Assembly: GCF_007995015.1 (NCBI RefSeq)
Contig: NZ_VORB01000001.1
Location: 1-64,000, forward strand
Reading direction: 5' to 3'
From: Luteibaculum oceani
GTDB lineage: Bacteria; Bacteroidota; Bacteroidia; Flavobacteriales_D; Luteibaculaceae
DNA length: 64,000 nt
The notes below the pieces were generated by a model. It was not told the origin of the DNA, searched no databases, and was given only the letters and a program-made list of their open reading frames with translations. The position numbers and the translations under genes are program-made. Position 1 is the first letter of the stretch. Each line of letters begins with the position of its first letter. Shown here piece after piece: positions 1 through 35,936 of the stretch.

Positions 1-63
1 TAGCGCTTCTATTGCTACCATTGCCTTAAATTTAGCTGTGAATTTCCTTTTTGTTCGTGCCAT
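1..63 (-). CDS. IS3-type transposase OrfA, N-terminus only (cut by window edge)
   Basis: The 21 visible codons from the ATG at 61-63 read MARTKRKFTAKFKAMVAIEA then L. This is the typical start of the helix-turn-helix OrfA protein of IS3-family elements, which carry a (K/R)RKFTxEFKxxVxxEAL signature at the start of the DNA-binding domain. OrfA normally binds the terminal repeats and is joined to the OrfB catalytic domain by a programmed frameshift; neither the rest of OrfA nor OrfB is visible. Recognition rests on only 21 residues, but the match to the family pattern is strong. Confidence 0.75.
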   Translation of the reverse strand, partial: MARTKRKFTAKFKAMVAIEAL

Positions 64-127
64 TTCTAACGGTTTTTTTAAATGTAAATAAACTTAACCG
101 CTGGTCCACTTTTTAGGGAGTATTACA
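1..127 (-). mobile_element. Left end of an IS3-family-like insertion sequence (partial)
   Basis: The reverse strand opens an IS3-type transposase OrfA at 63 (next entry), preceded by about 60 bases of leader. Read outward on the minus strand, the sequence near 127 begins TGTAATACTCCC and continues with a TGGACC motif (around 103-108). IS3 elements usually end in TG...CA, so an end at about 127 is plausible. The other end and any target duplication lie outside the window, so the boundary is inferred and uncertain by some bases. Confidence 0.6.
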
Positions 128-161
128 TATATTATCCGAATCAGATTCGAATATCAAAAAT

Positions 162-1868
162 GTGGATAGCAGAAATATTGCTAGAATATTTAACCTGGTA
201 CAAAACGAGTTTGCAGATTGCATTAAAGCTGAGTTTGTTCATACGACATCGCAATTAGACATACTTATTGATATTCTCATAAAAGATGGAAATTCAATCC
301 TGAAAAGAGATTGGTTAAACAAGCTTTACGAAAAGGAATTGGATAGCCTACGACAAAAAACCAAAGAATTAAACAAGGAATTAATTTCAGAAAAACCAAC
401 TCTTGACGTAAGCCGAATTAGAGATTATAAAATTTACAAATCCTGTGTTCATGAGGCATATTTCAATGATGACGAAAATAATAGAGATGCCAAAATTACA
501 GATGACGAACTATCCATTCTAGTTACCCTCACTAAGGCCCTGAACCTTTCCCAAGAGGAGGTGAAACTAATTAACTACCTAATTATCCCTCCAATAAAAA
601 GTGATATTGACGAAGTAATCAACTTTCTGAAGAACATTGGAGTGATTTTTTACTCTAAAAAGATCAATACAGTTTATGTTGCTGATGAAATGGTTATGCT
701 ATTAAGGCGAATTCGCAAAAAAGATGTAGCGGACAAGTACTTTAAGCGAGTTCTAAGGCTTTTAAAAGACTCTCAAATCAATCAATTATGTAGGAATCAC
801 AATATCTCATATCGCGATATTGATACTGAAACTAAGATTAAACAGCTAATCAAAGAAGGTATCTCCTTCTCCGATGTGCTTTTTGATGAGATGTACAAAC
901 CAGGAACTACTTTAACTGAGAAAAAGAAGGTTCTAAATGAGTTATGGACCGACAAATTGAAGTTTGAGGGATCACTAAAAGGAAGTACCCTAGAGGAGAA
1001 AGTGGAAAACCTAATTAGTCATTTCAATGAATTGGAAAAAGACGAAAAGGTTGGAATTTCTATTGAAGGTTACGAAAGATTAATAACTGACCTAAAAAGT
1101 TTCAGCACTAGCTTTGATAGAGATATTCGTGCGGCATTTGAAATAGAAGATCGAATTGAAATCGAAAGTGATTTTCTATTGGACCTAAATATTAAGCCAA
1201 GAGATTTGCTGGACAACCTTTCTAAAGAAGATTTAAAGCGCTTCGCCGAAGGTGCAAATATCAAATCCAGGGGGGATATTGCCTTAAATATTCTGGAGGC
1301 ATATACAGACATTGAAAATCTTTTTATTGAAAATTACACTCTTATAGGAACAAGAGATTTAGCAAGCCTAAAAGAAAATGGCATAAACATTAAGGAAAGT
1401 GAACTAGGGTTAAAATTTGAGGATATAACGGGTGAAATTTTTAAGCAGCTTGGATTTAATGTTGATTATGATCTTAAAAATCAAATAAGCACCAATAAGA
1501 ACAAAATTGATCTGATTTTAAACTTGGGGAACCAAGACCTAATGATTGTGGAATGTAAGACATCAAAAGACAGTAGCTTTAATAAGTTTAGCACAGTCTC
1601 TAGACAAATCAAATCTTACATTAATACAGCAGAAAAATCAGGCTACAACGTGGTTAAGTCCCTATTGATTGCACCCGAATTTAGCGACGATTTCATTAAC
1701 GAATGTGGTTTAGAATTTGAGATTAACCTATCCCTAATAACAGCAGAATCATTGTCAAAAATTCTGGAATATTTCAGAGAATCTAAGCACGAAAAACTTC
1801 CCTATCAACTATTTATGAAGGATGTCTTAATTAGAGAGGATAGAATTCAAAAAGCCCTAAAGAAATAA
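162..1868 (+). CDS. Unrecognised protein with C-terminal PD-(D/E)XK nuclease-like domain
   Basis: I do not recognise the full-length protein (568 residues). Its last ~150 residues look like an Mrr-type PD-(D/E)XK fold: Glu420 and Glu425 in a helix of the pattern GLKFEDITGEIFKQLGF, Asp450 in KIDLIL, and Glu464-Cys-Lys466 in VECKTSK, the expected D-x(n)-E-x-K spacing. The first 400 residues are charged, mostly helical by eye, with no signal peptide or membrane segment; two stretches (about 205-245 and 350-390) weakly recall SAP-like helical modules. Only a GTG (162) is available as a usual start; the frame is open back to 117, so the true N-terminus may be different or may have been removed by the neighbouring IS. 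The composition looks more AT-rich than the neighbours by eye. A DNA-processing or defence role is an inference only. Confidence 0.6.
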   Translation: MDSRNIARIFNLVQNEFADCIKAEFVHTTSQLDILIDILIKDGNSILKRDWLNKLYEKELDSLRQKTKELNKELISEKPTLDVSRIRDYKIYKSCVHEAYFNDDENNRDAKITDDELSILVTLTKALNLSQEEVKLINYLIIPPIKSDIDEVINFLKNIGVIFYSKKINTVYVADEMVMLLRRIRKKDVADKYFKRVLRLLKDSQINQLCRNHNISYRDIDTETKIKQLIKEGISFSDVLFDEMYKPGTTLTEKKKVLNELWTDKLKFEGSLKGSTLEEKVENLISHFNELEKDEKVGISIEGYERLITDLKSFSTSFDRDIRAAFEIEDRIEIESDFLLDLNIKPRDLLDNLSKEDLKRFAEGANIKSRGDIALNILEAYTDIENLFIENYTLIGTRDLASLKENGINIKESELGLKFEDITGEIFKQLGFNVDYDLKNQISTNKNKIDLILNLGNQDLMIVECKTSKDSSFNKFSTVSRQIKSYINTAEKSGYNVVKSLLIAPEFSDDFINECGLEFEINLSLITAESLSKILEYFRESKHEKLPYQLFMKDVLIREDRIQKALKK

Positions 1869-21599: not shown

Positions 21600-23870
21600 C
21601 TATTTCCGGGTTTCGCAGTCTAAAACAGCGATGGCTGCCATGTTAATTATTTCCTTTACCGAACAACCCAGGGTTAATACATGGAAAGGTTTATTCATTC
21701 CCATTAGCACAGGGCCAAGTGTTTCTGCACCTCCCATTTCATCCATTAATTTATAGGCAATATTTCCTGCAGATAAATTGGGGAAAATCAAGGTATTCGT
21801 TCTTTGGTCTAAAAGTTTTGAGAAGGGGAATTTCTCATTCATCAAATCATTGTTGATGGCAAAATTCGCCTGGATTTCCCCATCCACAATTAAATCTGGG
21901 TGCTCTTCTTGAAGTATTTTATTCGCTGCACGCATTTTTTCGGCGTCGGGACCAGGTGCCGAACCGAAATTGGAATACGAAAGCAATGCAATGCGAGGCT
22001 CTATACCGAATTTCTTAACCGTTTTAGCCGTTAACAGCGTAATCTCTACAATCTCCTCAACAGTTGGATTTAAGTTTACCGTAGTATCCGCGAAAAAGTA
22101 GGGTCTGTCTTTGGTAAGCATTACATACATTCCCGCCACTTTTTTAATTCCCGGCTCGGTTCCCACACATCTCAGTGCAGGACGCAATACCTCTCCATAA
22201 GAGCGGGTAATTCCACTTAAAAAGGCATCCGCCTTACCCGTCTCTACCAGCATAGATCCAAAATAATTTCGCTCGCGCATCATTTTTTCGGCTTCCCAAA
22301 GGGTTACCCCTTTGCGCTGACGCTTGGCAAAGTATTTCTTACCAAAATCCTTTCTCAACTCCGCAGCCGAATCATCACGTGGATCCATTATTTCACATCC
22401 GGATAAATCCAGATGATGCTCCTGTTCTAAAGATCTAATCTCATCTTCCTTACCCAATAAAATAGGTATGGCTAAATTTTCCTCAACACATTGTTGGGCT
22501 GCCTTTAGAATGTAGTAGTTATCGGCCTCTGCAAAAACTAAGCGCTTCTTTTTAATTTGCTTAGCATTCTCAAAAATATTTCTGGTAAAGCGCTTTTCTA
22601 AACCTAAGCGCGACATCAATTTTTTCTCGTAGGCTTTCCAGTCGGTAATGGGGTGTTTAGCAACTCCCGAATCCATTGCCGCCTTTGCTACAGCCATAGA
22701 TACCTCAGTTATTAATCTAGGATCTAGAGGTTTAGGAATTATGCTTTCTCTACCGAAGGTTAGGGTTTTTAATCCATAGGCTTGTGCCACCTCATCGGGA
22801 ACCGTCTTTTTTGCCAGCTTTGCCAGAGCGTGTACGGCAGCCAATTTCATTTCCTCATTAATATCGGTAGCCCTTACATCTAGCGCACCTCTGAATATGT
22901 ATGGAAACCCAAGTACGTTATTAACCTGGTTGGGATGATCGCTTCGACCCGTTGCCATAATCACATCTGGCCGTGTTTCTATGGCTGTTTGGTATGGAAT
23001 TTCGGGATCGGGATTAGCACAGGCAAAAACAATTGGGTTCTTGGCCATGCTTTTTAGCATTTCAGGAGTAACGATATTCCCAATACTCAATCCCAAAAAC
23101 ACATCTGCACCTTTCATGGCATCAGCTAAATCCTCATAGCTATTTGGATTAGCAAATTGTCTTTTTCTTTCGTCGAGATCATCTCTATCGGTGGTTATTG
23201 CGCCTTTGGAGTCGAACATAACTATGTGCTCTTGCTTTACTCCCAGGGCTTGGTACAATTTTCCACAGGAAATAGCTGCAGCTCCTGCACCGGAAACCAC
23301 CACTCTAACTTCCTCTATTTTTTTCTCTGCTAGTTCAAGTGCATTTAATAATGCTGCTGCCGAGATAATGGCTGTACCGTGTTGGTCGTCGTGCATAATT
23401 GGAATATCCAATTCCGCTTTTAAACGACGTTCTATTTCAAAAGCTTCTGGAGCCTTAATGTCCTCTAAATTTATTCCCCCAAAAGTTGGAGCGATAGCCT
23501 TAACAGCATTAACAAAACCGTCTATATCTGTAGCATCAACCTCTATATCAAAAACGTCTATATCAGAAAAGACCTTAAACAAAAGTCCCTTTCCTTCCAT
23601 TACTGGCTTAGATGCCTCAGGCCCAATATTCCCCAATCCGAGGACTGCAGTACCATTAGAAATTACTGCAACTAAATTCCCTTTTCCAGTGTAGTTATAG
23701 ACTTTATCGGTGTCTTCTGCAATTACTTTACAGGGCTCTGCCACCCCAGGAGAATAGGCTAATGATAAATCACGTTGTGTTTGATAGGGTTTGGTTGGAA
23801 CCACTTCTATTTTACCGGGCTTTCCCTTTTCGTGGTAATCCAGTGCTTCCTGACGCTTTGATTTAGCCAT
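21600..23870 (-). CDS. maeB: NADP-dependent malic enzyme fused to a phosphotransacetylase-like domain
   Basis: Decarboxylates malate to pyruvate, giving NADPH. The 756 residues match the MaeB hybrid type: a malic enzyme half (about 1-430) with YSPGVAEPC, DIDVFDIEVDATDIDGF, IMHDDQHGTAI and the NADP-binding VVSGAGAAAISCGKLYQ, then a phosphate acetyltransferase-like half (about 435-756) with FLSGITRSYGEVLRPALR and NLNPTVEEIVEITLLTA. In E. coli the second half regulates the enzyme through acetyl-CoA rather than acting as a transferase; the same is assumed here. It is first in a run with ruvA and sprA, and has its own -7 element, facing that of cobB. Confidence 0.95.
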   Translation of the reverse strand: MAKSKRQEALDYHEKGKPGKIEVVPTKPYQTQRDLSLAYSPGVAEPCKVIAEDTDKVYNYTGKGNLVAVISNGTAVLGLGNIGPEASKPVMEGKGLLFKVFSDIDVFDIEVDATDIDGFVNAVKAIAPTFGGINLEDIKAPEAFEIERRLKAELDIPIMHDDQHGTAIISAAALLNALELAEKKIEEVRVVVSGAGAAAISCGKLYQALGVKQEHIVMFDSKGAITTDRDDLDERKRQFANPNSYEDLADAMKGADVFLGLSIGNIVTPEMLKSMAKNPIVFACANPDPEIPYQTAIETRPDVIMATGRSDHPNQVNNVLGFPYIFRGALDVRATDINEEMKLAAVHALAKLAKKTVPDEVAQAYGLKTLTFGRESIIPKPLDPRLITEVSMAVAKAAMDSGVAKHPITDWKAYEKKLMSRLGLEKRFTRNIFENAKQIKKKRLVFAEADNYYILKAAQQCVEENLAIPILLGKEDEIRSLEQEHHLDLSGCEIMDPRDDSAAELRKDFGKKYFAKRQRKGVTLWEAEKMMRERNYFGSMLVETGKADAFLSGITRSYGEVLRPALRCVGTEPGIKKVAGMYVMLTKDRPYFFADTTVNLNPTVEEIVEITLLTAKTVKKFGIEPRIALLSYSNFGSAPGPDAEKMRAANKILQEEHPDLIVDGEIQANFAINNDLMNEKFPFSKLLDQRTNTLIFPNLSAGNIAYKLMDEMGGAETLGPVLMGMNKPFHVLTLGCSVKEIINMAAIAVLDCETRK

Positions 23871-23875
23871 AAACT

Positions 23876-23883
23876 TATATTTG
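23876..23883 (+). promoter_or_regulatory. Predicted -7 element of the sirtuin gene
   Basis: The plus strand reads TATATTTG, a TAnnTTTG match 37 bases before the preferred ATG at 23921. It lies 4 bases from an opposing element for maeB, so the two promoters overlap. Confidence 0.5.
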
Positions 23884-23886
23884 GCG

Positions 23887-23894
23887 CAAAGGTA
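23887..23894 (-). promoter_or_regulatory. Predicted -7 element of the maeB-ruvA-sprA run
   Basis: The minus strand reads TACCTTTG, a TAnnTTTG match 16 bases before the maeB ATG. It faces the cobB element at 23876-23883. Confidence 0.5.
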
Positions 23895-23920
23895 ATAGAA
23901 CCATTAAAGTGGACTACCCC

Positions 23921-24625
23921 ATGAGCAAAAAGAAACTCGCCGTATTAACTGGAGCTGGAATTAGCGCCGAAAGCGGATTAAAGACCTTTAGAGATGGCGA
24001 TGGCCTTTGGGAAAATCACTCTGTTTACGATGTGGCTACCCCAGAAGCATGGCAGCGAAATCCGAATCTTGTATTACGTTTTTATGAGGCGCGTTGGAAG
24101 CAAATGAAAACAGTGCAGCCCAATGCCGCCCACCAGGGTTTAAAAACGTTGGAAACTGATTTTCAAGTAGAAATTATCACCCAAAATATAGACGACCTTC
24201 ATGAGCGTGCCAGCAGTAACCACATCCTTCACCTACACGGTGAAATAAACAAGGTTTGCTCGGATAAAAACCCCTTTAAGCCATTGAAATTACCCAACCC
24301 CGAAAAATACATAACACTTGATGACAGGGCAGCGGACGGAGGAAAATTAAGACCATATGTAGTTTGGTTTGGAGAACCCGTTCCCGCAATGGAACAAGCT
24401 GCAGAAATCGTTATTTCGGCCGACGCATTAGTGATTATTGGGACAAGCCTACAAGTATATCCAGCCGCTGGCCTTGTTAACTATTTACATCCTTCCAAAC
24501 CCATTTTTATTTTAGACCCCAACCCCATGGCCGAATTATCGGTTGCAAACCCCATATACAGCATAGCCAAAAAAGCGGGTGAAGCTTTTGAGGAACTTAA
24601 AACACTAATTGATAGAAATTTATGA
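23921..24625 (+). CDS. cobB: Sirtuin, class III-like NAD-dependent protein deacylase lacking the zinc cysteines
   Basis: Removes acyl groups from lysine using NAD. The 234 residues show GAGISAESGLKTFRDGDGLW, TQNIDDLHERA and the catalytic His106 in HLHGE. Tyr55 and Arg58 form the YxxR motif that in class III sirtuins such as CobB and SIRT5 favours succinyl or malonyl lysine, so acidic acyl groups are likely substrates. Only one cysteine (Cys113) is present where four zinc ligands usually sit, so the zinc module is replaced by a zinc-free loop, as in several Bacteroidota relatives. I prefer the ATG at 23921 over the GTG four codons earlier. The next gene overlaps by 4 bases. Confidence 0.92.
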   Translation: MSKKKLAVLTGAGISAESGLKTFRDGDGLWENHSVYDVATPEAWQRNPNLVLRFYEARWKQMKTVQPNAAHQGLKTLETDFQVEIITQNIDDLHERASSNHILHLHGEINKVCSDKNPFKPLKLPNPEKYITLDDRAADGGKLRPYVVWFGEPVPAMEQAAEIVISADALVIIGTSLQVYPAAGLVNYLHPSKPIFILDPNPMAELSVANPIYSIAKKAGEAFEELKTLIDRNL

Positions 24626-25230
24626 TTAGAATCCTAACAACAGCTACTTTACTTCTCTTAACTGGGGTAATATTTGGACAGAAATATAGGTTTACACCAG
24701 AATTTAGCTTTGGCCTAGTCGCTGCTCAAGTAGATGGAGATGCCATTGGCGGATACGACAAACCTGGTTTAGCAATTAGTTATGGTGTTAATAAATTATT
24801 GGACCGCAAGTGGAATTTCAATTTTGCCCTACAATTTGCCCAGAAGGGGAGTCTAAAAAGACCAAATACTCAGCAGGGAGATTATACTAAATACGGCATA
24901 AACACCATGTATATTGAAAGTCCGTTTCGTATAGAATACCTAGCTAAACCTTTATCCATCTTTATTGGAAGCAGTATTGGCGGTTTAATTTATGCCAGAG
25001 AGTACGACCAAAATGGTACAATAGATGGCAATCCAGAATTTAACCGAATTGAATTGGCTGGGTTTATGGGAATTAAATACTTTTTCAATCGAAAACTATT
25101 TGTTGAGCTCAGCGCAGGTAATTCGTTGCTCCCCATACGAAACTTTAGGGATGGCCCCTCTTGGTTTAGAAATAACGGACAATACAACCGATGGCTGCTT
25201 AGCAAAATAGGATTCAATATTCGCCGTTAG
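24622..25230 (+). CDS. Small outer-membrane beta-barrel protein (PorT-like pattern)
   Basis: The 202-residue protein has a signal peptide (about 1-19, ending IFGQ) and alternating strands: SFGLVAAQVDGDAIGGYDKPG, then FALQFAQKGSLK, IESPFRIEYL, and a final FNIRR. This is the layout of small eight-stranded barrels often called PorT-family or outer membrane beta-barrel proteins in Bacteroidota. The start ATG overlaps the cobB stop (ATGA), so expression follows cobB. A direct functional tie to the deacylase is not apparent. Confidence 0.7.
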   Translation: MIRILTTATLLLLTGVIFGQKYRFTPEFSFGLVAAQVDGDAIGGYDKPGLAISYGVNKLLDRKWNFNFALQFAQKGSLKRPNTQQGDYTKYGINTMYIESPFRIEYLAKPLSIFIGSSIGGLIYAREYDQNGTIDGNPEFNRIELAGFMGIKYFFNRKLFVELSAGNSLLPIRNFRDGPSWFRNNGQYNRWLLSKIGFNIRR

Positions 25231-25499: not shown

Positions 25500-26201
25500 T
25501 TAGAAAATAGAAACCTTGCTAATGTTTAGCACTTCACCATTCTCATTTAATAGGTTCACTAAGTGAATTCCTTTTGTAAATCTTTGTGTTGGTACAATTA
25601 GAACTCCATCGTCTAAACGTACATCATCCATAAATACAACCTTACCAGTTATATCTCTAATTTCAATGCTTCCTGCACCTTCTAAGTTAGAAAGCGCAAG
25701 TGTAAGCTGCTCATTTGCTGCGCTATAGGCTACTTTCACCTGGTTTTTAGCAAGTTCTTTAATTCCTACTGTAGCTTCGGTTGCATCAAAAATGATAGTT
25801 AACCTCTGGTTATCCGACGTGTCATTTGCATTAGTAAATATATAGTCGATTTCGGTAACACCTGGTCTTTCTTCGGGGTTGTAATAAGCAGTAAAGGTTT
25901 CATCAACTCCCTGTGGATCAATAATAACACTAGCCTCTGGGTTACTTTGGTTAGCGTTGGCTGGGTAACAATTAACCCCCCAACAGAAATAATTAATACT
26001 TCCAAATACCTCTTTAACCAACTCTCTTCTCATGTCAACTTCAGCGGTGTTATTTGCATCGTTATATACTTTAACGTAAACACCTCTTTCGTATTCAGTG
26101 TAACCCATTTTAACGGTTACTTCTGTTTTTTCTAAACGTATTTGAGAAAATGAGGTAAGGGTAATTGCTAAGGATACTAGTAAAAGGGTAAAGTGTTTCA
26201 T
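25500..26201 (-). CDS. Secreted protein with type IX sorting domain
   Basis: The 233 residues begin with a signal peptide (1-19, ending SFSQ). The middle part contains FCWGVNCYPANANQSNPEA and a beta-sandwich-like stretch, a pattern seen in small uncharacterised Bacteroidota exported proteins. The last ~70 residues look like a type A T9SS tail: LEGAGSIEIRDITGKVVFMDD, then FTKGIHLVNLLNENGEVL and KVSIF. It is therefore probably exported through SprA. It has its own -7 element and terminator. Specific function unknown. Confidence 0.8.
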   Translation of the reverse strand: MKHFTLLLVSLAITLTSFSQIRLEKTEVTVKMGYTEYERGVYVKVYNDANNTAEVDMRRELVKEVFGSINYFCWGVNCYPANANQSNPEASVIIDPQGVDETFTAYYNPEERPGVTEIDYIFTNANDTSDNQRLTIIFDATEATVGIKELAKNQVKVAYSAANEQLTLALSNLEGAGSIEIRDITGKVVFMDDVRLDDGVLIVPTQRFTKGIHLVNLLNENGEVLNISKVSIF

Positions 26202-26555: not shown

Positions 26556-28466
26556 ATGAAAAGACTATTACTCTTGTTACTAGCCTCAGTTTTCACCGGC
26601 GGATTATTCGCTCAAACGGTGATTTATACTGAGACTTTTGCCAACGGTGCTCCAGACTGGACCATCGAAAATCTGGGGAACAGCCCAGAGCAATTCCAGA
26701 TTGTTACATTAAACAACACTTCTCTGTTCACCTCAGGAGCAGATGGAAGTTTATATGCTAACGGATATAATACCGGAGCAGGAACCACCCATCAAGGGCA
26801 TACCACTATCACTTCTCCAGGTTTCGACTGTTCTTCTTACGATAAAGTAATGATGACTTTTGAACAGCTATTTAGCCACATCCAAAGTAACTCTACTTGT
26901 AAGGTGTTAGCTTCTAACGATAGCACCACTTGGACTACGGTTTATTCTAACACTGGTGAAATAACCGACCCTATTTTAACTTACGTTGATCTTACTGCAG
27001 TTGCGGCAAACCAACCAAAGGTTTACTTGAAATTCGAATTTACTTCTACGGGAGATAGATATTGGATAGTTGATGACGTTACTGTTTTCAATCCAGTAGC
27101 AATTAACCTTAACACTAACTACTCTGACATTGTTAGAACGCTAGGTGGTATTAAAGTTATTACTTACTCTCCTGCCTTTGGTAGATATGGAATGAGAATT
27201 AATGTACAAAACACTGGTGGTGATGTGATTACCGACATTGAAGTTGATTACGACGTTAACGGTGGTACTACTGAGTCTTACTCTTTTACAGGATTAAACA
27301 TTGCACCAGCGGAATCTGATGACATTATTATTCCAAACATTGTACAACCTTCAGGAGCAAGCTTCTTTAGAGTAACTGCTAACATTAAATCTGTTAACGG
27401 AGTATCGTACTCGGCAGATACACAAATGGCAGATGCTATTTTCTACAAAGATGGCGAGTCTAGCCCAAGAACTCCGGTAATTGAGGTATTTACTAGCTCA
27501 ACTTGTGGACCATGTCTTCCTGGTAACACCCAAATCCATAGTGTTATGGATCCAAAAGATCCTAAAGAGTACGTTATGATTAAGTACCAACAGGATTTCC
27601 CAGGAACAGGTGATCCATACTGTACTGATGAAGCGGTTTCAAGAAGAGGATTCTACGGAGTTAACTCTATTCCTAACACAGCGATTGATGGTGGATGGAA
27701 CCAAAACCCTAATGGTGGAGCATTCAACAATACGGTTTACAACGATCACAAGGACATTCCTAGTGTAGTTGTGGTTTCTGGAACTTATAATGTTGATCCA
27801 GCTACTAAAACTGTTACATATTCTGTAGATGTAACTCCTGACTTTGACATTCCTGCGGGGGCGTTAAACGTTAACATTCAAATTATAGAAGGAAAAACAG
27901 ATAACAACGTTAAAAGCAACGGTGAAACTGAATTCCACCAGGTAATGAAGAAGATGTTGACAGGTGTTCTCGGTCAACCACTTCCTGATTTAAAAGCTGG
28001 TGTTGCTACTAACATTTCCGGTTCTTACACTTTCCAAGGTAACTACCGTTTACCTAACAATGCAGGTGACAGAATTGATCACGAAATTGAGCACACTGTT
28101 GAGGAGTTCGAAGATCTATACGTTGTTGCATTCGTTCAGCACATGGGAAGCAAAAAGATTATTGGTGGTGGAAACACTTCTAAATCTACTTCTATCGAAG
28201 AAAAAGAAAGCGTAGTTGCAGAATTAACTGCTTCTCCTAACCCATTCAACAACGTTCTTAACCTAAACATCGATGCTATCAGAAATGCTTCTGCTAACGT
28301 GGTAGTTATGGATGTAACTGGCAAGGTTGTTGCTTCTGAATTAGTAGAGGTTAATGCTGGATCTCAAGAAGTTTCTTTAGACCTATCTAACGTTAATGCT
28401 GGTGTTTATACCGTAGCGGTAAACGTGAACGGAAGCGCTAAGCAAGTTAAGGTTGTGAAGCTGTAA
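26556..28466 (+). CDS. Omp28-like secreted protein with CGPC motif and type IX sorting tail
   Basis: 636 residues from the ATG at 26556, chosen because it starts a clean signal peptide (1-19, ending LFAQ); an earlier in-frame TTG at 26502 would add a non-signal extension. Order of parts: a jelly-roll or MAM-like adhesive domain (about 20-180), a beta-sandwich linker (about 190-300), an Omp28-like thioredoxin-fold domain starting at VIEVFTSSTCGPCLPGN with Cys317 and Cys320, and a type A T9SS tail (about 555-636) with ASPNPFNNVLNLNI and GVYTVAVNVNG. It is predicted to be exported through SprA and to act at the cell surface. A thiol-disulfide function is suggested by the CGPC but not proven. Confidence 0.82.
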   Translation: MKRLLLLLLASVFTGGLFAQTVIYTETFANGAPDWTIENLGNSPEQFQIVTLNNTSLFTSGADGSLYANGYNTGAGTTHQGHTTITSPGFDCSSYDKVMMTFEQLFSHIQSNSTCKVLASNDSTTWTTVYSNTGEITDPILTYVDLTAVAANQPKVYLKFEFTSTGDRYWIVDDVTVFNPVAINLNTNYSDIVRTLGGIKVITYSPAFGRYGMRINVQNTGGDVITDIEVDYDVNGGTTESYSFTGLNIAPAESDDIIIPNIVQPSGASFFRVTANIKSVNGVSYSADTQMADAIFYKDGESSPRTPVIEVFTSSTCGPCLPGNTQIHSVMDPKDPKEYVMIKYQQDFPGTGDPYCTDEAVSRRGFYGVNSIPNTAIDGGWNQNPNGGAFNNTVYNDHKDIPSVVVVSGTYNVDPATKTVTYSVDVTPDFDIPAGALNVNIQIIEGKTDNNVKSNGETEFHQVMKKMLTGVLGQPLPDLKAGVATNISGSYTFQGNYRLPNNAGDRIDHEIEHTVEEFEDLYVVAFVQHMGSKKIIGGGNTSKSTSIEEKESVVAELTASPNPFNNVLNLNIDAIRNASANVVVMDVTGKVVASELVEVNAGSQEVSLDLSNVNAGVYTVAVNVNGSAKQVKVVKL

Positions 28467-28495
28467 ACCAGAAATTCTTGTTATTTTCACTTTTC

Positions 28496-28521
28496 AAAAG
28501 CCCTCTCCGGAGGGCTTTTTT
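28496..28521 (+). terminator. Terminator after the Omp28-like T9SS cargo gene
   Basis: A 10-bp stem (28496-28505 with 28510-28519) with a TCCG loop and a T-run, 29 bases after the stop codon. The TlpA gene begins only 14 bases beyond it with no obvious promoter, so some read-through is likely. Confidence 0.88.
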
Positions 28522-28534
28522 AAATTATAAAACC

Positions 28535-29035
28535 ATGAAATACCTAGTAACTTTACTTTCAATTTGTTTCTCTGTAGCCCTTATGGCTCAATCTACCGAC
28601 TTACCATCGGTTACCGTTAAAACACTAGCGGGAAAATCCTTTAACAGCGCTGATATCGATAATGATGGTAAACCCATTATCATCAATTTTTGGGCAACTT
28701 GGTGTGGACCTTGTAAAAAGGAATTAAATACCATCCACGATCTTTATCCAGATTGGCAAGATGAAACAGGTGTTGTTATTTACGCGGTTTCTATCGACGA
28801 TTCTAGAAACGTAGCAAAAGTTGGTCCTTATGCAAACAGTAGAGCCTGGGAATACGAAATTCTATTGGACTCCAATGGGGATCTTGCTCGTGCTATGAAT
28901 GTTACCAACCCTCCTCATACCTTTGTTCTAGACGGAAATAAGAAAATCGTATGGCAGCACAATGGATACGCTGCTGGTGACGAGGAAGAATTGTACGACG
29001 TAATCACAAAAGTAGCTAACGGTGAAGATCTGTAA
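28535..29035 (+). CDS. TlpA-family thiol-disulfide oxidoreductase
   Basis: A periplasmic thioredoxin-fold protein of 166 residues with a signal peptide (1-19, ending LMAQ) and the active site WATWCGPCKKE (Cys57, Cys60). The cis-proline region is TNPPHTFVLDG near residue 130, as in the TlpA/ResA group, which usually keep cysteines reduced, for example for haem attachment. The ATG at 28535 was preferred over an earlier start at 28478, which would lie across the terminator and give no signal peptide. The following gene overlaps it by 14 bases. Confidence 0.9.
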   Translation: MKYLVTLLSICFSVALMAQSTDLPSVTVKTLAGKSFNSADIDNDGKPIIINFWATWCGPCKKELNTIHDLYPDWQDETGVVIYAVSIDDSRNVAKVGPYANSRAWEYEILLDSNGDLARAMNVTNPPHTFVLDGNKKIVWQHNGYAAGDEEELYDVITKVANGEDL

Positions 29036-30662
29036 ATACGCAGCCCCTTTTATTCTCCTTTTTATATCCTTCAATCTTAGTGCTCAGGTGGGAGGAAAGT
29101 TCAGCGGAAACTTCGAGTTTAACGGCCAATACTATGTGGAAGACACATTAATTGATGCCATTCAGCCCGATGAAAAAATGCTGAGCAACGCTTTCTTAAA
29201 CCTATTGTACAGCAACGATAAAATTAGTGCGGGAATTAGATACGAGGCCTATCAAAATCCCCTACTCGGATTTCCAACTGGGTACACTGGACAAGGAATT
29301 CCATATCGCTTTGTATCCTACCGAGATGATAATTACTCGGTAACCGTTGGGAATTTTTACGAGCAATTCGGAAGTGGATTAGTTCTGAGAGCATACAATT
29401 CCCCAGGATTAGGATACGATAATGCCTTTGATGGGATTCGTTTAACCTACAAGCCTCACAAGGCTATCAACATTAAAGCCCTTTGGGGTAAACAAAGAAT
29501 TTTCTTCGACAATGGCCCTGGAATTGTAAGGGGCTTGGATACAGAAGTGAGCTTATCCGACCTATTAAAACCTGATGGATCTTACGAGCATTCGGTTATT
29601 GTGGGTGGATCTGTAGTTAGTAAATATCAGGAAGATAACCGCCCCGATTTAAATCTTCCGGAAAATGTGGCTGCATTCAGCGGAAGAGTGCAATACGCAA
29701 ACACCAAGGGGATTAATGTTCAGGCAGAATATGCCTACAAAGCAAATGACCCATCCTTTGATAATAGATACATCTATCACAATGGTAAGGCACTTTTAGC
29801 CAGCGCGTCATATTCTACAAAGGGATTTGGACTTACATACGGTATTAAAGCCGTAGATAATATGTCATTTAGATCGGATAGAAATGCACAAAGCAATAAT
29901 CTATTCATTAATTATATACCTGCCCTTAACCGCCAGCATACCTACAACTTAGCGGCAAGCTTTTATCCATATGCGGTTCAACCCAATGGTGAGTTTGGTG
30001 ATCAAATAGAACTGCTTTATACCTTCCAAAGAGGTACCCTGCTGGGTGGGAAATACGGGACTTATTTAAGCGTAAACTACAGTCGAGTTAAGGAACTAGA
30101 AAAAGTTGGTATTCCCGATTCTTTGGACGAAAAACTACAAGGGTATGAACGCACGGTGTTTAAACCAGGTAAGCGAGAATATTTTCAGGACTTAAACATT
30201 GAGTTGCGTAAGAAATTAAATAAGGAATGGTCCTTTGTATATAACTACGTGAATCTGTTTTACAACATGTCGGTTGTACAAGGGCTTGAAGGGTCGAAAG
30301 ATGTCAGAGCCTCAATACATATAGCGGATGTAACCTATAAGCTTGCTAGAAAAAAAGCACTTCGACTGGAGATGCAGCACATGGCAACCGAGCAAGATCA
30401 AGGAGACTGGGCTTCGGCGATTTTAGAATATACCATTTCGCCACACTGGTTTTTCTCCGTATTTGATCAATACAACTACGGAAATCCAGAAGAGGCCCGA
30501 CGCGTACATTATTTCGTTGGTTCAATAGGATATATCAAGGATGCTTTCAGAATTACTGCCAACCTAGGTAAGCAGCGTGCTGGAATATTCTGTGTAGGTG
30601 GTGTTTGTAGAAATGTACCTGCATCAAGCGGTTTTTCGTTAACTGTAAGTGGAACTTTTTAG
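29022..30662 (+). CDS. DUF6029-like outer-membrane beta-barrel protein
   Basis: The 546 residues start with a signal peptide (1-22, ending LSAQ) at a GTG inside the end of the TlpA gene. The body is a series of strands with repeated features such as GNFYEQFGSGLVLRAY and FDGIRLTYKPHKAINIKALWG, matching what I know of the DUF6029 family of large Bacteroidota barrels, usually found next to TlpA/Omp28 genes. The protein ends in GFSLTVSGTF, a barrel-like C-terminus with final Phe. Near residue 525 there is a cysteine pair (IFCVGGVCRN), unusual in a barrel and noteworthy next to thiol-redox genes. Function unknown. Confidence 0.72.
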   Translation: MKICKYAAPFILLFISFNLSAQVGGKFSGNFEFNGQYYVEDTLIDAIQPDEKMLSNAFLNLLYSNDKISAGIRYEAYQNPLLGFPTGYTGQGIPYRFVSYRDDNYSVTVGNFYEQFGSGLVLRAYNSPGLGYDNAFDGIRLTYKPHKAINIKALWGKQRIFFDNGPGIVRGLDTEVSLSDLLKPDGSYEHSVIVGGSVVSKYQEDNRPDLNLPENVAAFSGRVQYANTKGINVQAEYAYKANDPSFDNRYIYHNGKALLASASYSTKGFGLTYGIKAVDNMSFRSDRNAQSNNLFINYIPALNRQHTYNLAASFYPYAVQPNGEFGDQIELLYTFQRGTLLGGKYGTYLSVNYSRVKELEKVGIPDSLDEKLQGYERTVFKPGKREYFQDLNIELRKKLNKEWSFVYNYVNLFYNMSVVQGLEGSKDVRASIHIADVTYKLARKKALRLEMQHMATEQDQGDWASAILEYTISPHWFFSVFDQYNYGNPEEARRVHYFVGSIGYIKDAFRITANLGKQRAGIFCVGGVCRNVPASSGFSLTVSGTF

Positions 30663-30672
30663 GAGATAAGTG

Positions 30673-31542
30673 ATGAAGAAATTATTTGGATTACTGTGTT
30701 GTGCAGCATTATTTGCTTGCGATAAAATAGACAACCCCATCCCCGAGCAAGTTCAGTTAACAGCTTGCGAAGTAGAATTTCCCGATTTAGTACCCTTTAC
30801 AACCCGACGCGTTTTGATAGAGGATTACACGGGCCACAAATGTGGAAACTGCCCCGCCGCTGCGCTGGAGGCCAAACGCATAGAGCAAAAATATCCAAAC
30901 GACGTTGTGGTTATGGGTGTACATGCTGGATTCTTCGCTGAATATAGATCCAGTGGAAAATATTCTACCGATTTCACTTGCGAGGCCAGCGAAAAGTGGG
31001 ACTTAGATTTTGGAATCTCTGCCGTTGGAAATCCGAACGGAATGGTAAACAGGTTGGACAATGGAGGTAATAAAGTGGTCGCATATCCAGATTGGGAGTC
31101 TAAAGCCACCCAGTTTATTGGTCGTTTGGCCGATTTAGAACTTAACGTTGCCGCTAAAATTAACGACGACAAAATCTGTGGTCAGGCTTTTATTCAGCCT
31201 CTTACAAAACTAGATTCCAATCTGGCGATTAACATCGTGTTACTAGAAGACAGCATTGTAGATTGGCAAAAGAACTACAAAAACACAGGAGGAGACCCAA
31301 ACCTTCCAGACGGTGATGTGCCAGACTACGTGCACAATCACGTCCTTAGAAAATCATTTAACGGACCATACGGAACCCTGCTTACGGGAATTTCTAAGGT
31401 GCCCACGGATAGTATTTTTCCAATTGGAATTGAAACGCAAATCGATAGCACCTGGAGAAAATCTAAGCTAAGTGTTGTGGCATTTGTGTACGATATCAAC
31501 TCTAAAGAAGTACTACAAGTAGCCAAAGCAAAGGCTAAATAA
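30673..31542 (+). CDS. Omp28-related lipoprotein with CGNC thioredoxin motif
   Basis: The 289-residue protein has a lipoprotein signal peptide with lipobox LFAC (lipidated Cys16) followed by DKID. Its thioredoxin-like fold begins with RRVLIEDYTGHKCGNCPAA (Cys57, Cys60), the hallmark of Omp28-related proteins of Bacteroidota. It should be anchored in the outer membrane. The start ATG at 30673 has an AGGAG sequence at 30661-30665, a rare clear Shine-Dalgarno in this window; a GTG one codon earlier is also possible. It is the last gene of the TlpA-DUF6029 run and ends just before a terminator that lies inside queG. Confidence 0.82.
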   Translation: MKKLFGLLCCAALFACDKIDNPIPEQVQLTACEVEFPDLVPFTTRRVLIEDYTGHKCGNCPAAALEAKRIEQKYPNDVVVMGVHAGFFAEYRSSGKYSTDFTCEASEKWDLDFGISAVGNPNGMVNRLDNGGNKVVAYPDWESKATQFIGRLADLELNVAAKINDDKICGQAFIQPLTKLDSNLAINIVLLEDSIVDWQKNYKNTGGDPNLPDGDVPDYVHNHVLRKSFNGPYGTLLTGISKVPTDSIFPIGIETQIDSTWRKSKLSVVAFVYDINSKEVLQVAKAKAK

Positions 31543-31549
31543 TAGCGGA

Positions 31550-32482
31550 CTAACTATTCTTAAGAAACCCAATATTGCGTTTTATACCGCGATATTGGGT
31601 TCTTTTTATTGCAGACCCTTTGAAAAGCTCTTCAAAGAGTTCTTCCGTCATTTCTTCCCACCCCCTATCGGATATTTGGATTCTTTCCTTATTTGCCCGT
31701 AAATCCTCTGTTTTATGGGGGGTTGAAAATCGATTCCATGGGCACACATCCTGACAAACATCGCAACCAAAAGCCCAATCGTCCATTTTCCCTTTAAAAT
31801 TATTGGGGATATTCTCTTTTAGCTCTATTGTGAGATAGGAAATACATTTAGAACCATCAATCTGATAAGGTTGAATTAAAGCATCAGTTGGACAAGCATC
31901 AATACATTTGGTACAGGTACCACAATAATCTTTAATGGGGCCATCTGGTTCCAAATCCAGATCTAAAATTAATTCGGCGATAAAGAAAAAAGACCCACTT
32001 CCCTTATTGATTAAGTTGGTGTTCTTTCCTATCCATCCCAATCCAGATTTCTTTGCCCATGCCTTATCCATTACCGGAGCAGAATCGACAAAAATTCGTC
32101 CGCCGACCTCCCCTATTTGTTCGGTAATGGCATGGAGAAAATGTTTGAGTTTCTTTTTAATCACCTTGTGGTAATCCCTACCATAGGCATATTTAGAAAT
32201 CTTGTATTTACTGTCTTCTCGCTGCTTTTCTGATGGGTAATAATTAAGCAGCAAGCTAATCACAGATTTGGCACCTGGAACAAGAATCCGCGGATCTATG
32301 CGCTTATCGAAGTTCCTTTCCATGTACGACATATCGCCATGAAACCCCTTTTTAAGCCAAAGCTCAAGACCCTTAGCCTCTTCCTGCAATTGTTCTGCTT
32401 TGGAAATACCACAAAAATCAAAACCTAAATCGGCGGCTATTTGCTTTACGGTTTGGGTTCGAGTGGATTTTAATAGGTCCAT
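31550..32482 (-). CDS. queG: Epoxyqueuosine reductase
   Basis: Last step of queuosine synthesis in tRNA, a cobalamin and iron-sulfur reductase. The 310 residues contain the two ferredoxin-type motif groups [16 protein letters not shown] and [13 protein letters not shown], plus the QueG region [23 protein letters not shown] with its conserved Asp for acid catalysis. Its ATG overlaps the ruvB stop (TAATG). The 3' end of the coding sequence contains a hairpin that would terminate transcription from the opposite strand. Typical lengths are 310-390, and this one is at the short end. Confidence 0.95.
31566..31608 (+). terminator. Plus-strand terminator inside the 3' end of queG
   Basis: A 14-bp stem (31566-31579 with 31588-31601, one G-T pair) and a T-rich tail (31603-31608) follow the stop of the Omp28-related lipoprotein gene by 23 bases. 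It falls within the last codons of the convergent queG. On the minus strand the tail is poor in T, so it probably works mainly for the plus strand. Confidence 0.8.
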
Positions 32483-33504
32483 TAGAATAGCTTAAATTCA
32501 TCTGGCCCACCAGGAAGTTTCCCGAAATGTTTAAAGCACTTTTCCGTTACTTTTCTACCACGAGGGGTACGGATTAAGAAGCCTTCTTGGATTAAAAAGG
32601 GTTCGTACACTTCTTCAATTGTTCCCGCTTGTTCCCCCACCGCTGTAGCGATGGTAGTTAAACCAACAGGCCCACCCTTAAATTTATCTATTATGGCCTC
32701 AAGGATTTTACAATCCATTTCATCCAAGCCATAGTGATCCACATTTAATGCGTTTAATGCGTGGGTCGTAATCGCCAAATCGATACGCCCGCTGCCTTTT
32801 ACCTGCGCAAAATCTCTAACCCGACGAAGTAATGCATTGGCTATCCTGGGAGTTCCACGAGACCTTCCTGCTATTTCTTGAGATGCTTCTGGACTGATAG
32901 GAATATTTAAAATGTCTGCAGATCTTGTTACAATGCCCGAAAGTATTTCTGGCTGGTAGTACTGTAATCGAGAGTTAATTCCAAACCTGGCTCTTAACGG
33001 CGCAGTTAATAATCCTGATCTTGTTGTGGCTCCAACAAGAGTAAAGGGATTAAGCGTAATCTGAACACTTCTTGCGGAAGGACCCGCATCGATCATCAAA
33101 TCGATTTTGAAATCCTCCATCGCTGAATATAAATATTCCTCCACAACCGGATTCAGACGGTGAATTTCATCTATGAAAAGAATATCATTTTCTTGCAAAT
33201 TGGTCAATAATCCAGCCAAATCTCCTGGCTTATCTAAAACCGGACCGGAGGTTATTTTTAAATCAGCTCCCATCTCATTTGCAATGATGTTTGCCAACGT
33301 AGTTTTACCTAAACCGGGGGGACCGTGTAATAAAACATGGTCTAGTGATTCTCCTCGATGTTTTGCGGCCTCAACAAACACCTTAAGATTATCCAAAACT
33401 TGCCTCTGACCACTGAAATCCTCAAATGATTGGGGTCGAAGTACTCTATCGACATCTCTTTCGCCTGCTAAGGCATCGTCATCTCTAAAATCAAAATCCT
33501 CCAA
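32482..33504 (-). CDS. ruvB: Holliday junction branch-migration ATPase RuvB
   Basis: The AAA+ motor that drives branch migration with RuvA. The 340 residues have Walker [13 protein letters not shown], Walker [10 protein letters not shown], sensor [18 protein letters not shown] and the winged-helix end with [17 protein letters not shown]. The start is a TTG at 33504; a stop codon lies 4 codons upstream in frame and no ATG follows in the N-terminal region, so TTG is the only reasonable choice. It overlaps the preceding outer-membrane protein gene by 14 bases and queG by 1 base. Confidence 0.95.
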
Positions 33505-34147
33505 GATCCGTCTGGTTTAATTTGGATAATATCTCCTCGAAATTGAGGTTGAATTTAAGGCTATATATGGGCGAATTAAAATTTAAGCCAAAACTTCTAT
33601 TTCCAAAAAGCAAAACTCGATAACCCAAGCCCGTACCTATTGAAAATATTTTTGTTGGGTGATAGTTTACAACCATTACCGCCTCATAAATCATTAGGAA
33701 ATTATGTTCTCCGGTGCTTTCTCCTGTTATTTTACTACTGATATCACCAATTCCCATCTGCAAAGGATAGGAGGCTGTAAAACGGCCTTTATTAAAGAAT
33801 AAGTACTCTAGGAAAACAGAACCATAATCTAAGTAGACTTCTTCGTTTATAGAATTCGCCGCGAGCGGAGCACTTTTACCAAGTCTGTTGGTGTGATATC
33901 CAACCCCCAGTTGCAACCTTTTCCCAAAATTAGCACCAACCTGTATTCCTTGAATCTTTACCTGAGTGTTAGCAATGAAGGAATTCTTCCCATCTAGGCG
34001 CAACAAAAATTTGGGTTCATTCTCATTGATTTCAGACTTCAACAATTTTCCCACCTGGCCATAGCTAATAGAAGCCGTTCCGATAAGGACAAACCCCAAC
34101 AAAAAAATCCGCTGAAGCAAAGCAGCAGCGGATTTTTTACTATTCAT
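33491..34147 (-). CDS. Uncharacterised outer-membrane protein between ctaD and ruvB
   Basis: 218 residues from the ATG at 34147, chosen over an ATG at 34177 that overlaps ctaD. A signal peptide (about 1-30, ending SYGQ) is followed by strands typical of small barrels ([37 protein letters not shown]). I do not recognise the family. The first codons contain a strong terminator-like hairpin (34102-34138), so transcription from the ctaD operon may stop inside this gene. Its stop overlaps the ruvB start. Confidence 0.65.
34099..34138 (-). terminator. Terminator-like hairpin after ctaD, inside the next gene's signal-peptide codons
   Basis: A 12-13 bp stem (34102-34114 with 34126-34138), followed on the minus strand by a T-run. 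The ctaD stop codon is at 34161-34163, only 23 bases upstream. The same bases encode residues [13 protein letters not shown] of the downstream protein. By position and form it is the natural end of the act-cox transcript. Confidence 0.82.
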
Positions 34148-34160
34148 TGAAACAATATTT

Positions 34161-35936
34161 CTAATGATCCTCTTCACCTTCTTTTAATGGAACGGTCTGA
34201 GGCATATAATCTTGTTCTTCGTAACGGCTATAGTCGTAAGCCCAACGGTGTACAGTTGGAAGTTCACCTTCCCAGTTTCCGTGAATGTGCTCCACTGGTG
34301 TAGTCCACTCAAGTGTATTAGACTTCCATGGGTTTTGAACTGACTTCTGTCCTTTGAAAATGCTATAGAAGAAGTTAAATAAGAAAATCCCTTGAGCAGC
34401 TGCACCAATTATTGCGAAAACACTAATTAGCACGTTCAAATCAACAACTTGATCAAACATAGCAAACTCAGAGTACTCGTAGTAACGTCTTGGAGCACCG
34501 GCCAAACCTAGGTAGTGCATAGGGAAGAATACCCCGTAAGCACTTACAATAGTAATCCAGAAATGCGCGTAACCAAGCTTAGTGTTAAGCATTCTTCCAT
34601 ACATTTTCGGGAACCAGTGGTAAACACCTGCGAACATTCCAAAGATGGCAGATAGACCCATTACAATGTGGAAGTGAGCTACAACAAAGTAAGTATCGTG
34701 AACGGTGATATCTAATGTGGAATCCGCCAGGATAATACCCGTAACACCACCAGTTACGAAAGACGATACCAACCCAATAGAGAACAACATTGCTGGGGTA
34801 TACACGATGTTACCCTTCCATAACGTGGTAATGTAGTTAAATGCCTTAACCGCGGATGGAATAGCAATAAGAAGTGTTGTAAATACGAATACAGACCCTA
34901 GGAATGGATTCATCCCGGTAACAAACATGTGGTGACCCCATACGATAAACGAAAGGAATCCAATTGCCAAGATAGAACCAATCATTGCACGGTATCCAAA
35001 AATTGGCTTCCTAGAGTTTGTTGCAATAATTTCTGAAGTAATACCCAATGCAGGAAGCATTACGATGTATACCTCTGGGTGACCTAAGAACCAGAATAAG
35101 TGCTGGAATAGGATAGGCGATCCACCAGTAGCATCTAAAGCTTCACCAGCAATATAAATATCTGATAAGTAGAATGCCGTACCAAAAGAACGGTCCATGA
35201 TTAGAAGTAACGCTGCTGAGAATAATACTGGGAAAGATAATACCCCAAGTACAGCAGTGATGAAGAATGCCCAAATAGTAAGTGGCAATCTTGTCATCTT
35301 CATTCCCTTAGTTCTAAGGTTTAGGATGGTAACGATATAGTTAAGACCACCTAGAAGAGACGAAGCAATGAAAATTGCCATCGAAACTAACCAAAGGGTC
35401 ATACCAAGACCAGAACCAGGAACTGCCTGTGGAAGAGCTGATAGAGGAGGATAGATTGTCCAACCTGCTGCTGCTGGTCCACTTTCTACGAATAATGAAA
35501 TGATCATTACTACAGAAGAAATGAAGAAGAACCAGTAGGAAAGCATGTTAAGGAATCCACTAGCCATATCTCTTGCTCCAATTTGTAACGGAATAAGTAG
35601 GTTAGAGAAGGTTCCTGATAATCCTCCAGTTAATACAAAGAATACCATAATAGTACCGTGCATTGTAACCAATGCCAAATACATATTACGATCTAATATT
35701 CCATCTGGAGCCCATTTGTCTCCTAGGAAAGTATTAAGGATACCAAAAGATTCTCCTGGCCATCCTAATTGAAGTCTAAAGAACACAGACATCATCATGG
35801 CTACAATAGCCATAACAATTGCAGTTACTAAGAACTGGCGCCCGATCATTTTATGATCCTGGCTAAATACCCACTTCGTTAGAAACGTTTCTTCGTGGTG
35901 ATGTGCGTGACCTGCTGTATGTACTGTACCAGCCAT
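34161..35936 (-). CDS. ctaD: Cytochrome c oxidase subunit I
   Basis: The catalytic core with haem a and the haem a3-CuB centre. The 591 residues have the 12-helix core and the key patterns: GHPEVYIVMLPALG (CuB His, cross-linked Tyr and the Glu of A1-type enzymes), WGHHMFVTGMNP (CuB His pair), TVHDTYFVVAHFHIVMG (haem a3 and a ligands) and MHGTIMVFFVLTGG (haem a ligand). It is thus an A1-type proton-pumping oxidase. It lies 3 bases after coxB. Subunits III and IV are encoded 28 kb away in the ctaB operon. Confidence 0.96.
   Translation of the reverse strand: MAGTVHTAGHAHHHEETFLTKWVFSQDHKMIGRQFLVTAIVMAIVAMMMSVFFRLQLGWPGESFGILNTFLGDKWAPDGILDRNMYLALVTMHGTIMVFFVLTGGLSGTFSNLLIPLQIGARDMASGFLNMLSYWFFFISSVVMIISLFVESGPAAAGWTIYPPLSALPQAVPGSGLGMTLWLVSMAIFIASSLLGGLNYIVTILNLRTKGMKMTRLPLTIWAFFITAVLGVLSFPVLFSAALLLIMDRSFGTAFYLSDIYIAGEALDATGGSPILFQHLFWFLGHPEVYIVMLPALGITSEIIATNSRKPIFGYRAMIGSILAIGFLSFIVWGHHMFVTGMNPFLGSVFVFTTLLIAIPSAVKAFNYITTLWKGNIVYTPAMLFSIGLVSSFVTGGVTGIILADSTLDITVHDTYFVVAHFHIVMGLSAIFGMFAGVYHWFPKMYGRMLNTKLGYAHFWITIVSAYGVFFPMHYLGLAGAPRRYYEYSEFAMFDQVVDLNVLISVFAIIGAAAQGIFLFNFFYSIFKGQKSVQNPWKSNTLEWTTPVEHIHGNWEGELPTVHRWAYDYSRYEEQDYMPQTVPLKEGEEDH

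Follow-up and report, generated by a model that had tools for sequence, protein, structure and literature searches.

The 64,000-bp stretch analysed here (the window), positions 1 to 64,000 of the forward strand of Luteibaculum oceani contig NZ_VORB01000001.1 (assembly GCF_007995015.1), carries at 26556-31542 four consecutive plus-strand genes that Pfam and NCBIfam profile matches identify as encoding an Omp28/HBP35-like protein with a type IX secretion system (T9SS) tail, a TlpA-type oxidoreductase, a DUF6029 outer-membrane barrel and an Omp28 lipoprotein. These genes belong to a conserved thiol-redox gene module around an outer-membrane barrel in Bacteroidota, which suggests a means, so far undescribed, of regulating or handing on thiol chemistry at the cell surface. 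An initial annotation of this DNA had placed the four genes here with CGPC, CGPC, a barrel cysteine pair and CGNC, respectively, and the profile matches and motifs bear this out. The features of the locus, all on the plus strand, are as follows:

26556-28466, plus strand: T9SS-tailed Omp28/HBP35-like thioredoxin-fold protein, 636 residues; CGPC at 27504-27515
28496-28521, plus strand: probable intrinsic terminator separating the T9SS gene from tlpA; 10-bp stem, 4-nt loop and T run, -16.8 kcal/mol, z -5.5
28535-29035, plus strand: predicted periplasmic TlpA-type thiol-disulfide oxidoreductase, 166 residues; PF00578 76.5 bits, CGPC at 28703-28714
29022-30662, plus strand: DUF6029 outer-membrane barrel, 24 strands predicted; PF19494 610.5 bits (cut-off 27)
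30591-30608, plus strand: barrel cysteine pair C-V-G-G-V-C (C502 and C507 in the model), in the connector from strand 23 to strand 24, on the long-loop side
30673-31542, plus strand: Omp28/HBP35-family lipoprotein with thioredoxin and Ig-like domains; lipobox cysteine at 30718-30720 (by eye), CGNC at 30841-30852
31566-31601, plus strand: terminator-like hairpin 3' of the operon, from a terminator scan

The 3' end of tlpA overlaps the start of the barrel gene (29035 versus 29022), and the ATG of the lipoprotein gene lies 10 nt past the barrel stop codon. Because a strong hairpin with a T run (absent from the list of one general terminator scan and found by folding-energy analysis) splits the T9SS gene from tlpA, the operon probably consists of the last three genes. 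The proposed four-gene row is thus correct in that all are consecutive, but the first gene lies behind a probable terminator and has a counterpart upstream of tlpA in only 24 of 80 loci (below). Genome-wide, PF11551 matches the two Omp28-type genes and nothing else (the T9SS-tailed one below cut-off), and since both lie in this locus their neighbourhood is more than chance. AhpC-TSA matches number 19, 18 of them over cut-off; because TlpA-type proteins are this common in the genome, the TlpA neighbour is informative solely through its conservation.

That conservation was measured in 172 distinct loci whose DNA extends 600 nt or more before the barrel and 900 nt or more past it, after removal of barrels with identical last 200 residues and of the 372-residue L139. 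TlpA adjoins the barrel in 155 of these (137 upstream, 16 on the opposite strand and 2 fused) and Omp28 adjoins it in 147; a single locus has a match to neither. In the best 80 of 431 loci by similarity to the window barrel, the gene 5' of the barrel is TlpA in 70 of 75 cases and the gene 3' is Omp28 in 78 of 79, against 11 TlpA and 33 Omp28 matches among the 645 other genes of the set (the 33 include upstream T9SS-tailed Omp28 genes); overlapping open reading frames were resolved in favour of TlpA/Omp28 matches, alike at all positions. These control counts rule out a chance neighbourhood. In two genomes of one genus TlpA and the barrel are fused in frame (667 and 678 residues) with no signal peptide between them, and in 12 loci that were read individually TlpA is on the opposite strand and no Omp28 was found within the DNA examined.

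Of 120 genomes sampled from the window's order, 115 carry DUF6029; across the phylum it exceeds the curated cut-off in 78 of 296 sampled. In one family where it is patchy (over cut-off in 59/194 genomes), an Omp28-profile match at E<=1e-18 is found in 59/59 DUF6029 genomes versus 2/135 others, and the Omp28 gene is distant from the barrel in several of them (on another contig in G136, about 1 Mb off in G492). Among the 296 phylum genomes the same threshold, picked after the values were known, gives 59/59 of those with strong DUF6029 (E<=1e-15) versus 4/216 of those without it. Since the genomes are related, the threshold is post hoc and the profile comes from barrel neighbours, the p-values of these contrasts are not to be taken literally. 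Genomes G451 and G566 have strong Omp28-lipoprotein-type matches and DUF6029 was not found in them, though their congeners carry it; recent loss of DUF6029 is possible there.

The initial annotation had staked its proposal on a genetic link among TlpA, DUF6029 and Omp28, to be sought by a gene-neighbourhood survey, and on homologous clusters retaining the CxxC cysteines. The link is present as adjacency, fusion and co-occurrence, and C-x-x-C (counted anywhere in the protein, irrespective of position) occurs in 162/162 adjacent full-length TlpA proteins and in 168/168 Omp28-type matches within 1 kb of the barrel. The cysteine pair of the barrel, which the same annotation had called uncommon, is instead a hallmark of the family. 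Among 89 aligned DUF6029 proteins (480-610 residues, 17-53% identity to the window barrel, near-duplicates thinned; the frame-disrupted L062 and L138 were set aside before alignment, the fusion L120 fell outside the length limit, and L166 was obtained afterwards) there are seven invariant columns, G88, G97, G499, C502, G505, C507 and G515, and both cysteines are among them. C-x4-C near the C-terminus occurs in 184/186 distinct DUF6029 proteins of at least 480 residues, the two exceptions being L062 and L138, in which the motif sits in another frame, and in 16/16 further, very divergent loci, so that the pair is intact in 200/202 overall; this count excludes L208 (30 bits, no motif, judged non-DUF6029) and L209 (no DUF6029).

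The AlphaFold2 model of the barrel has a mean predicted local distance difference test (pLDDT) score of 96.3, and 24 strands were counted from its DSSP line. The connectors alternate between a short side (mean 4.2 residues) and a long side (mean 14.8), and because such alternation is the usual periplasmic/extracellular pattern, the long side is presumably the extracellular face. The cysteine pair lies in a long-side connector (residues 497-512) that includes two short strands and is better conserved than any other of the fold (3.32 bits versus a long-side mean of 2.19), so in this model the pair presumably sits in a hairpin facing outward. The best solved structural match is the FimD translocation domain (3ohn_A; Z 18.5, root-mean-square deviation 4.3 Å, 373 residues aligned, 11% identity); those ranking below it are general porins and are uninformative on function. 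When the barrel alignment was run as a profile against solved structures, only RecA constructs came back, and they were rejected as an artefact (residues 100-137 only, no stretch passing alone); a viral-contig scan with one short pattern found no barrel relative.

The window lipoprotein scores 66.6 bits against PF11551 (cut-off 34.9) and 127.9 bits against the NF033782 Omp28 subfamily (cut-off 150), and is thus a family member outside this NCBI subfamily. Its model (pLDDT 93.9) best matches HBP35 (5y1a; Z 23.3, 221 residues aligned). In an alignment of 103 barrel-adjacent Omp28 proteins (the window protein and 102 of 104 relatives; L014 and L026, both with CxxC, were omitted for their long N-terminal extensions) the invariant residues are both CxxC cysteines, one glycine and Pro105, which we read as the thioredoxin cis-proline. 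The residues that follow the lipid-bearing cysteine are C-D-K-I-D in the window protein and mostly C-D-K-[IV]-[DE]-x-P in relatives (by eye). Two Omp28 lipoprotein copies stand in tandem 3' of the barrel in L136 and L185, and in L134 the Omp28 neighbour (2-1486, minus strand, at least 495 residues) carries another CxxC stretch where it is truncated.

The window TlpA has a WCGPC motif and a signal peptide without lipobox (by eye), and with its PF00578 match it is of the TlpA/ResA-type fold; it is under the cut-offs of the NCBI models for ResA (76.1 bits, cut-off 170), DsbE (59.4, 123.15) and TlpA (42.3, 230). The genome has a single DsbD, with N-terminal, membrane and thioredoxin domains, and profile searches of it gave no match to DsbB or VKOR; for these two reasons a thiol flow in the reducing direction is favoured.

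The first gene is a T9SS cargo by its TIGR04183 type A tail (37.8 bits, cut-off 23), and GldK is present in the genome (559.2 bits, cut-off 350). Its other matches are weak: choice-of-anchor J at 20.4 bits (cut-off 30) and PF11551 at 16.8 bits, below the Omp28 domain cut-off. Three CxxC counterparts in other loci gave PF11551 scores of 66.2 bits (L033, passing) and 34.6 bits (L061, just under) and no match (L072). The DNA reaches 2.8 kb or more upstream in 80 loci, 8 of which lack an adjacent TlpA; in 24 of the 80, the same-strand gene immediately before tlpA encodes a CxxC protein of at least 400 residues, and 23 of these proteins fit a T9SS-tail pattern; in L085 and L086 a gene of the same kind is upstream on the opposite strand. 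Most of these proteins are Omp28-like by motif, the TlpA-like exceptions being L052 (PF00578 44.6 bits, over cut-off), L110 (24.1 bits, below the cut-off of 26) and L111 (motif and profile). A purely T9SS-linked gene set was rejected as the sole explanation of the locus, as many members of the window's class have GldK over cut-off and lack DUF6029, and DUF6029 genomes outside the class are missing from the GldK matches over cut-off (lists read, not tabulated).

Outside the window's close relatives other thioredoxin-fold proteins take the same places. In deep lineages the barrel-adjacent Omp28 ends in a T9SS-type tail, and no lipobox is seen by eye; six of seven such tails tested pass the TIGR04183 cut-off, L157 being below it. 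The most divergent branch comprises 18 loci; all 18 encode TlpA upstream of the barrel, and Omp28 was not found downstream in any of them. What lies downstream is a redoxin-type protein of about 270 residues with a T9SS-type tail in 16/18 and an additional redoxin-type lipoprotein of about 175 residues in 13/18, neither type being seen in L160 and L207; these tails and lipoboxes were counted by eye, and stricter patterns gave 1 tail and 9 lipoboxes. All seven divergent-branch tails tested exceed the curated cut-off, and the motif of the branch is mostly CPHC. That different thioredoxin-fold subfamilies occupy the same places is the strongest argument for thiol chemistry on the outer side being the function. 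The locations from periplasm to cell surface that the initial annotation had assigned agree with the signals and with the T9SS-type tails that stand in for the lipobox in proteins of the same slot, but no GldK over cut-off is present in those lineages, so T9SS export there is assumed from the tail. In L196, L198 and L200 a CAVC-motif protein with a TonB-receptor type start (by eye) lies 3' of the redoxin pair.

We tentatively favour, with slightly less than even confidence, the reading that these genes encode an outer-membrane thiol-disulfide exchange module through which reducing equivalents pass from the periplasm to the surface. The initial annotation had offered either a relay of reducing or oxidising equivalents across the outer membrane or maintenance of disulfides in exported proteins; the findings support this interpretation in part, and an electron relay by such a module is plausible. 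TlpA, probably recharged by the single DsbD, would work at or in the periplasmic mouth of the 24-strand barrel, and the invariant cysteine pair would be carried by a hairpin at the barrel's outer end. There it would swap thiols with a surface thioredoxin-fold partner held by lipid or by a T9SS-type tail, and where a second T9SS-tailed thioredoxin-fold protein is present it would lengthen the pathway outward. The direction we infer, most likely from periplasm to surface, would keep surface proteins or extracellular disulfides reduced. A more specific form, a heme-free, thiol-only conduit in which TlpA plugs the barrel lumen and passes electrons to the cross-strand CxxGxC hairpin of the outer rim and from there to the surface thioredoxin-fold proteins, is possible but doubtful. 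How TlpA would come into contact with the outward-facing cysteines is the weak point of the mechanism. Because ushers pass folded domains, a 24-strand lumen could, by analogy, be wide enough to let TlpA meet the outer pair.

A number of observations weigh against this reading. The modelled pair presumably faces outward, where a periplasmic TlpA could touch it only by entering the lumen or by acting before barrel insertion. Within the DNA examined, 15/172 loci have no TlpA match and 20/172 no Omp28 match, and in the window the first gene is separated from the rest by the probable terminator. At E<=1e-3 the phylum contrast drops to 59/59 versus 55/216; of 21 genomes with only weak DUF6029 matches, one has Omp28 at E<=1e-18; Omp28 occurs without DUF6029 in four genomes of the phylum and two of the family; and the Omp28 profile, built from barrel-adjacent proteins, is biased toward DUF6029-positive genomes. 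GldK over cut-off was not found outside the window's class, including in lineages with T9SS-type tails in the slot. The flow could also be oxidising, since hbp35 complements a dsbA mutant (below) and the divergent branch is mostly CPHC, a motif resembling that of oxidising DsbA. Lastly, the C-D-K-I-D of the lipoprotein, which would need to lie at the surface, has a lysine and an acid yet departs from the published surface-lipoprotein export signals, which are of the C-X-K-(D/E)2 or S-D-D type according to the part of the source available (PMC5080379).

The outward pair, invariant even where Omp28 is not adjacent, is accounted for by an alternative in which TlpA keeps the barrel cysteines reduced or shuffles them before insertion, and a surface disulfide, structural or mixed, then docks Omp28 without transmembrane electron flow; so are the position of tlpA directly upstream and its fusion at the barrel N-terminus. 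We nevertheless judge assembly or tethering of this kind less likely, though a serious alternative, as alone it leaves unexplained both the catalytic set of the lipoprotein (CxxC and invariant Pro105) and the additional T9SS-tailed CxxC thioredoxin-fold proteins. DUF6029 might instead move a thiol-bearing, disulfide-bearing, heme or polysaccharide substrate in or out, the thioredoxin-fold proteins acting on that substrate. In keeping with this, the closest solved structures of the barrel are translocation pores and porins, a second, small barrel lies 3' of omp28 in 30/71 loci, and, in the parts of the sources available, HBP35 is a hemin binder required for growth when hemin is absent (PMC2907840) and a resemblance to DUF6029 was noted for barrel-only homologues of Wzi located near polysaccharide exporters (PMC9603273). 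We give this channel rather little credence; among the module neighbours identified (a minority of all neighbours) no heme, glycan or metabolic gene recurs, and the few identified include no polysaccharide export genes. That the genes are neighbours through shared regulation or export needs, with the cysteines kept for ordinary fold stability, draws support from an apparent partial conservation of gene order around the module as well (malic enzyme, SIR2, QueG and T9SS proteins); it is very improbable in view of the natural fusion, rearrangements that retain TlpA beside the barrel, co-occurrence without adjacency, and the Omp28 slot being taken by other thioredoxin-fold proteins.

Relatives of the exchange module we favour are known in parts. 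HBP35 (5y1a) and Omp28 (2r2c) of Porphyromonas gingivalis have the thioredoxin plus Ig-like fold of the window lipoprotein; 2r2c is titled an outer membrane lipoprotein, like the window Omp28, and HBP35 is reportedly secreted by the Por/T9SS system (PMC3120885). According to the available part of its description, HBP35 has cysteine-dependent thioredoxin activity, reducing insulin, and hbp35 complements an Escherichia coli dsbA mutant (PMC2907840), so that a surface partner of this family could act in either direction. HBP35 differs from the window protein in having been studied for hemin binding, with hbp35 as a 1.1-kb transcript, and no barrel or TlpA partner is mentioned in that part of the paper (PMC2907840). 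The DsbD-driven TlpA/ResA/CcmG/DsbE pathways share the CxPC TlpA-type periplasmic oxidoreductase, and DsbD is also in this genome. These pathways serve cytochrome c maturation and other proteins of the periplasm, and no outer-membrane barrel is known among their partners.

MtrCAB of Shewanella has a large barrel (MtrB, 26 strands), a single redox partner on its inner side and a single lipoprotein at the cell surface; among the Foldseek matches of the window barrel, the Mtr entry 6r2q is one of many barrels. The likeness to the module is a functional analogy only; MtrCAB uses hemes, not thiols, has no sequence relation to it and has 26 strands versus 24 in our model, and none of the four genes matches a cytochrome family in Pfam or NCBIfam, as a porin-cytochrome conduit would. 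Shewanella reduces an extracellular disulfide, 5,5'-dithiobis(2-nitrobenzoic acid) (DTNB), in a manner that depends on DsbD and the heme-based Mtr system, as far as the available part of the report goes (PMC10986466). The FimD/PapC ushers share 24 strands and overall barrel shape with the DUF6029 model and differ in that no sequence relation was found; the window barrel, whose sole Pfam match is PF19494, has no usher domain.

Part of one published study gives DUF6029 a suggested polysaccharide role (PMC9603273), and a preprint of 2026 takes up a surface thioredoxin resembling HBP35 in Muribaculaceae, with no DUF6029-type barrel in the portion of that discussion available (PMC13404670). A literature search, with most subscription journals outside it, found nothing joining DUF6029, TlpA and Omp28, and no relevant paper on Omp28 with TlpA or on TlpA with type IX secretion and disulfide; a selenoprotein review and a paper on ExtI proved to have no bearing on the module.

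The wider neighbourhood contains a candidate further member of the module:

24622-25230, plus strand: small outer-membrane barrel OMP_b-brl_2, 202 residues, possible accessory; PF13568 33.3 bits (cut-off 27)

Its homologues (mostly 200-220 residues) account for the small barrels mentioned above, which follow omp28 on the same strand in loci with enough DNA; the five tested are all over the PF13568 cut-off. Unlike these downstream copies, the window's small barrel lies upstream of the module. Also upstream, at 21600-24625, are a malic enzyme-phosphotransacetylase gene (Pfam) and a SIR2-like gene, and a QueG-like gene (by eye) lies downstream at 31550-32482. SIR2 is a module neighbour in L084 and QueG in L053, similar gene ends recur in other loci, and by this recurrence the wider gene order is widely kept. 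Upstream neighbours identified in a few loci are SIR2, mannose isomerase, NADH dehydrogenase and T9SS proteins; the nine downstream genes identified from 64 loci include small barrels, QueG, colicin V and zincin-type proteins. A 233-residue protein encoded at 25500-26201 on the minus strand matches a T9SS tail weakly (19.7 bits against a Pfam cut-off of 27), and opposite-strand T9SS-like proteins of similar size recur near the same place in other loci. The 228-residue protein at 33491-34177 (minus strand) matches nothing in Pfam or NCBIfam at E<=1.

Established thiol-disulfide pathways work in the cytoplasm and the periplasm; their extension to the outer membrane and the cell surface would be new, and the relay, if true, would be categorically new. 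The analysis suggests a function for DUF6029, a Pfam family named by a single paper in the literature searched. The module is a concrete candidate, with defined cysteines, for what keeps HBP35-like thioredoxins working beyond the outer membrane. If it is true, a thiol-only conduit would let Bacteroidota set the redox state of the cell surface from the cytoplasm via DsbD.

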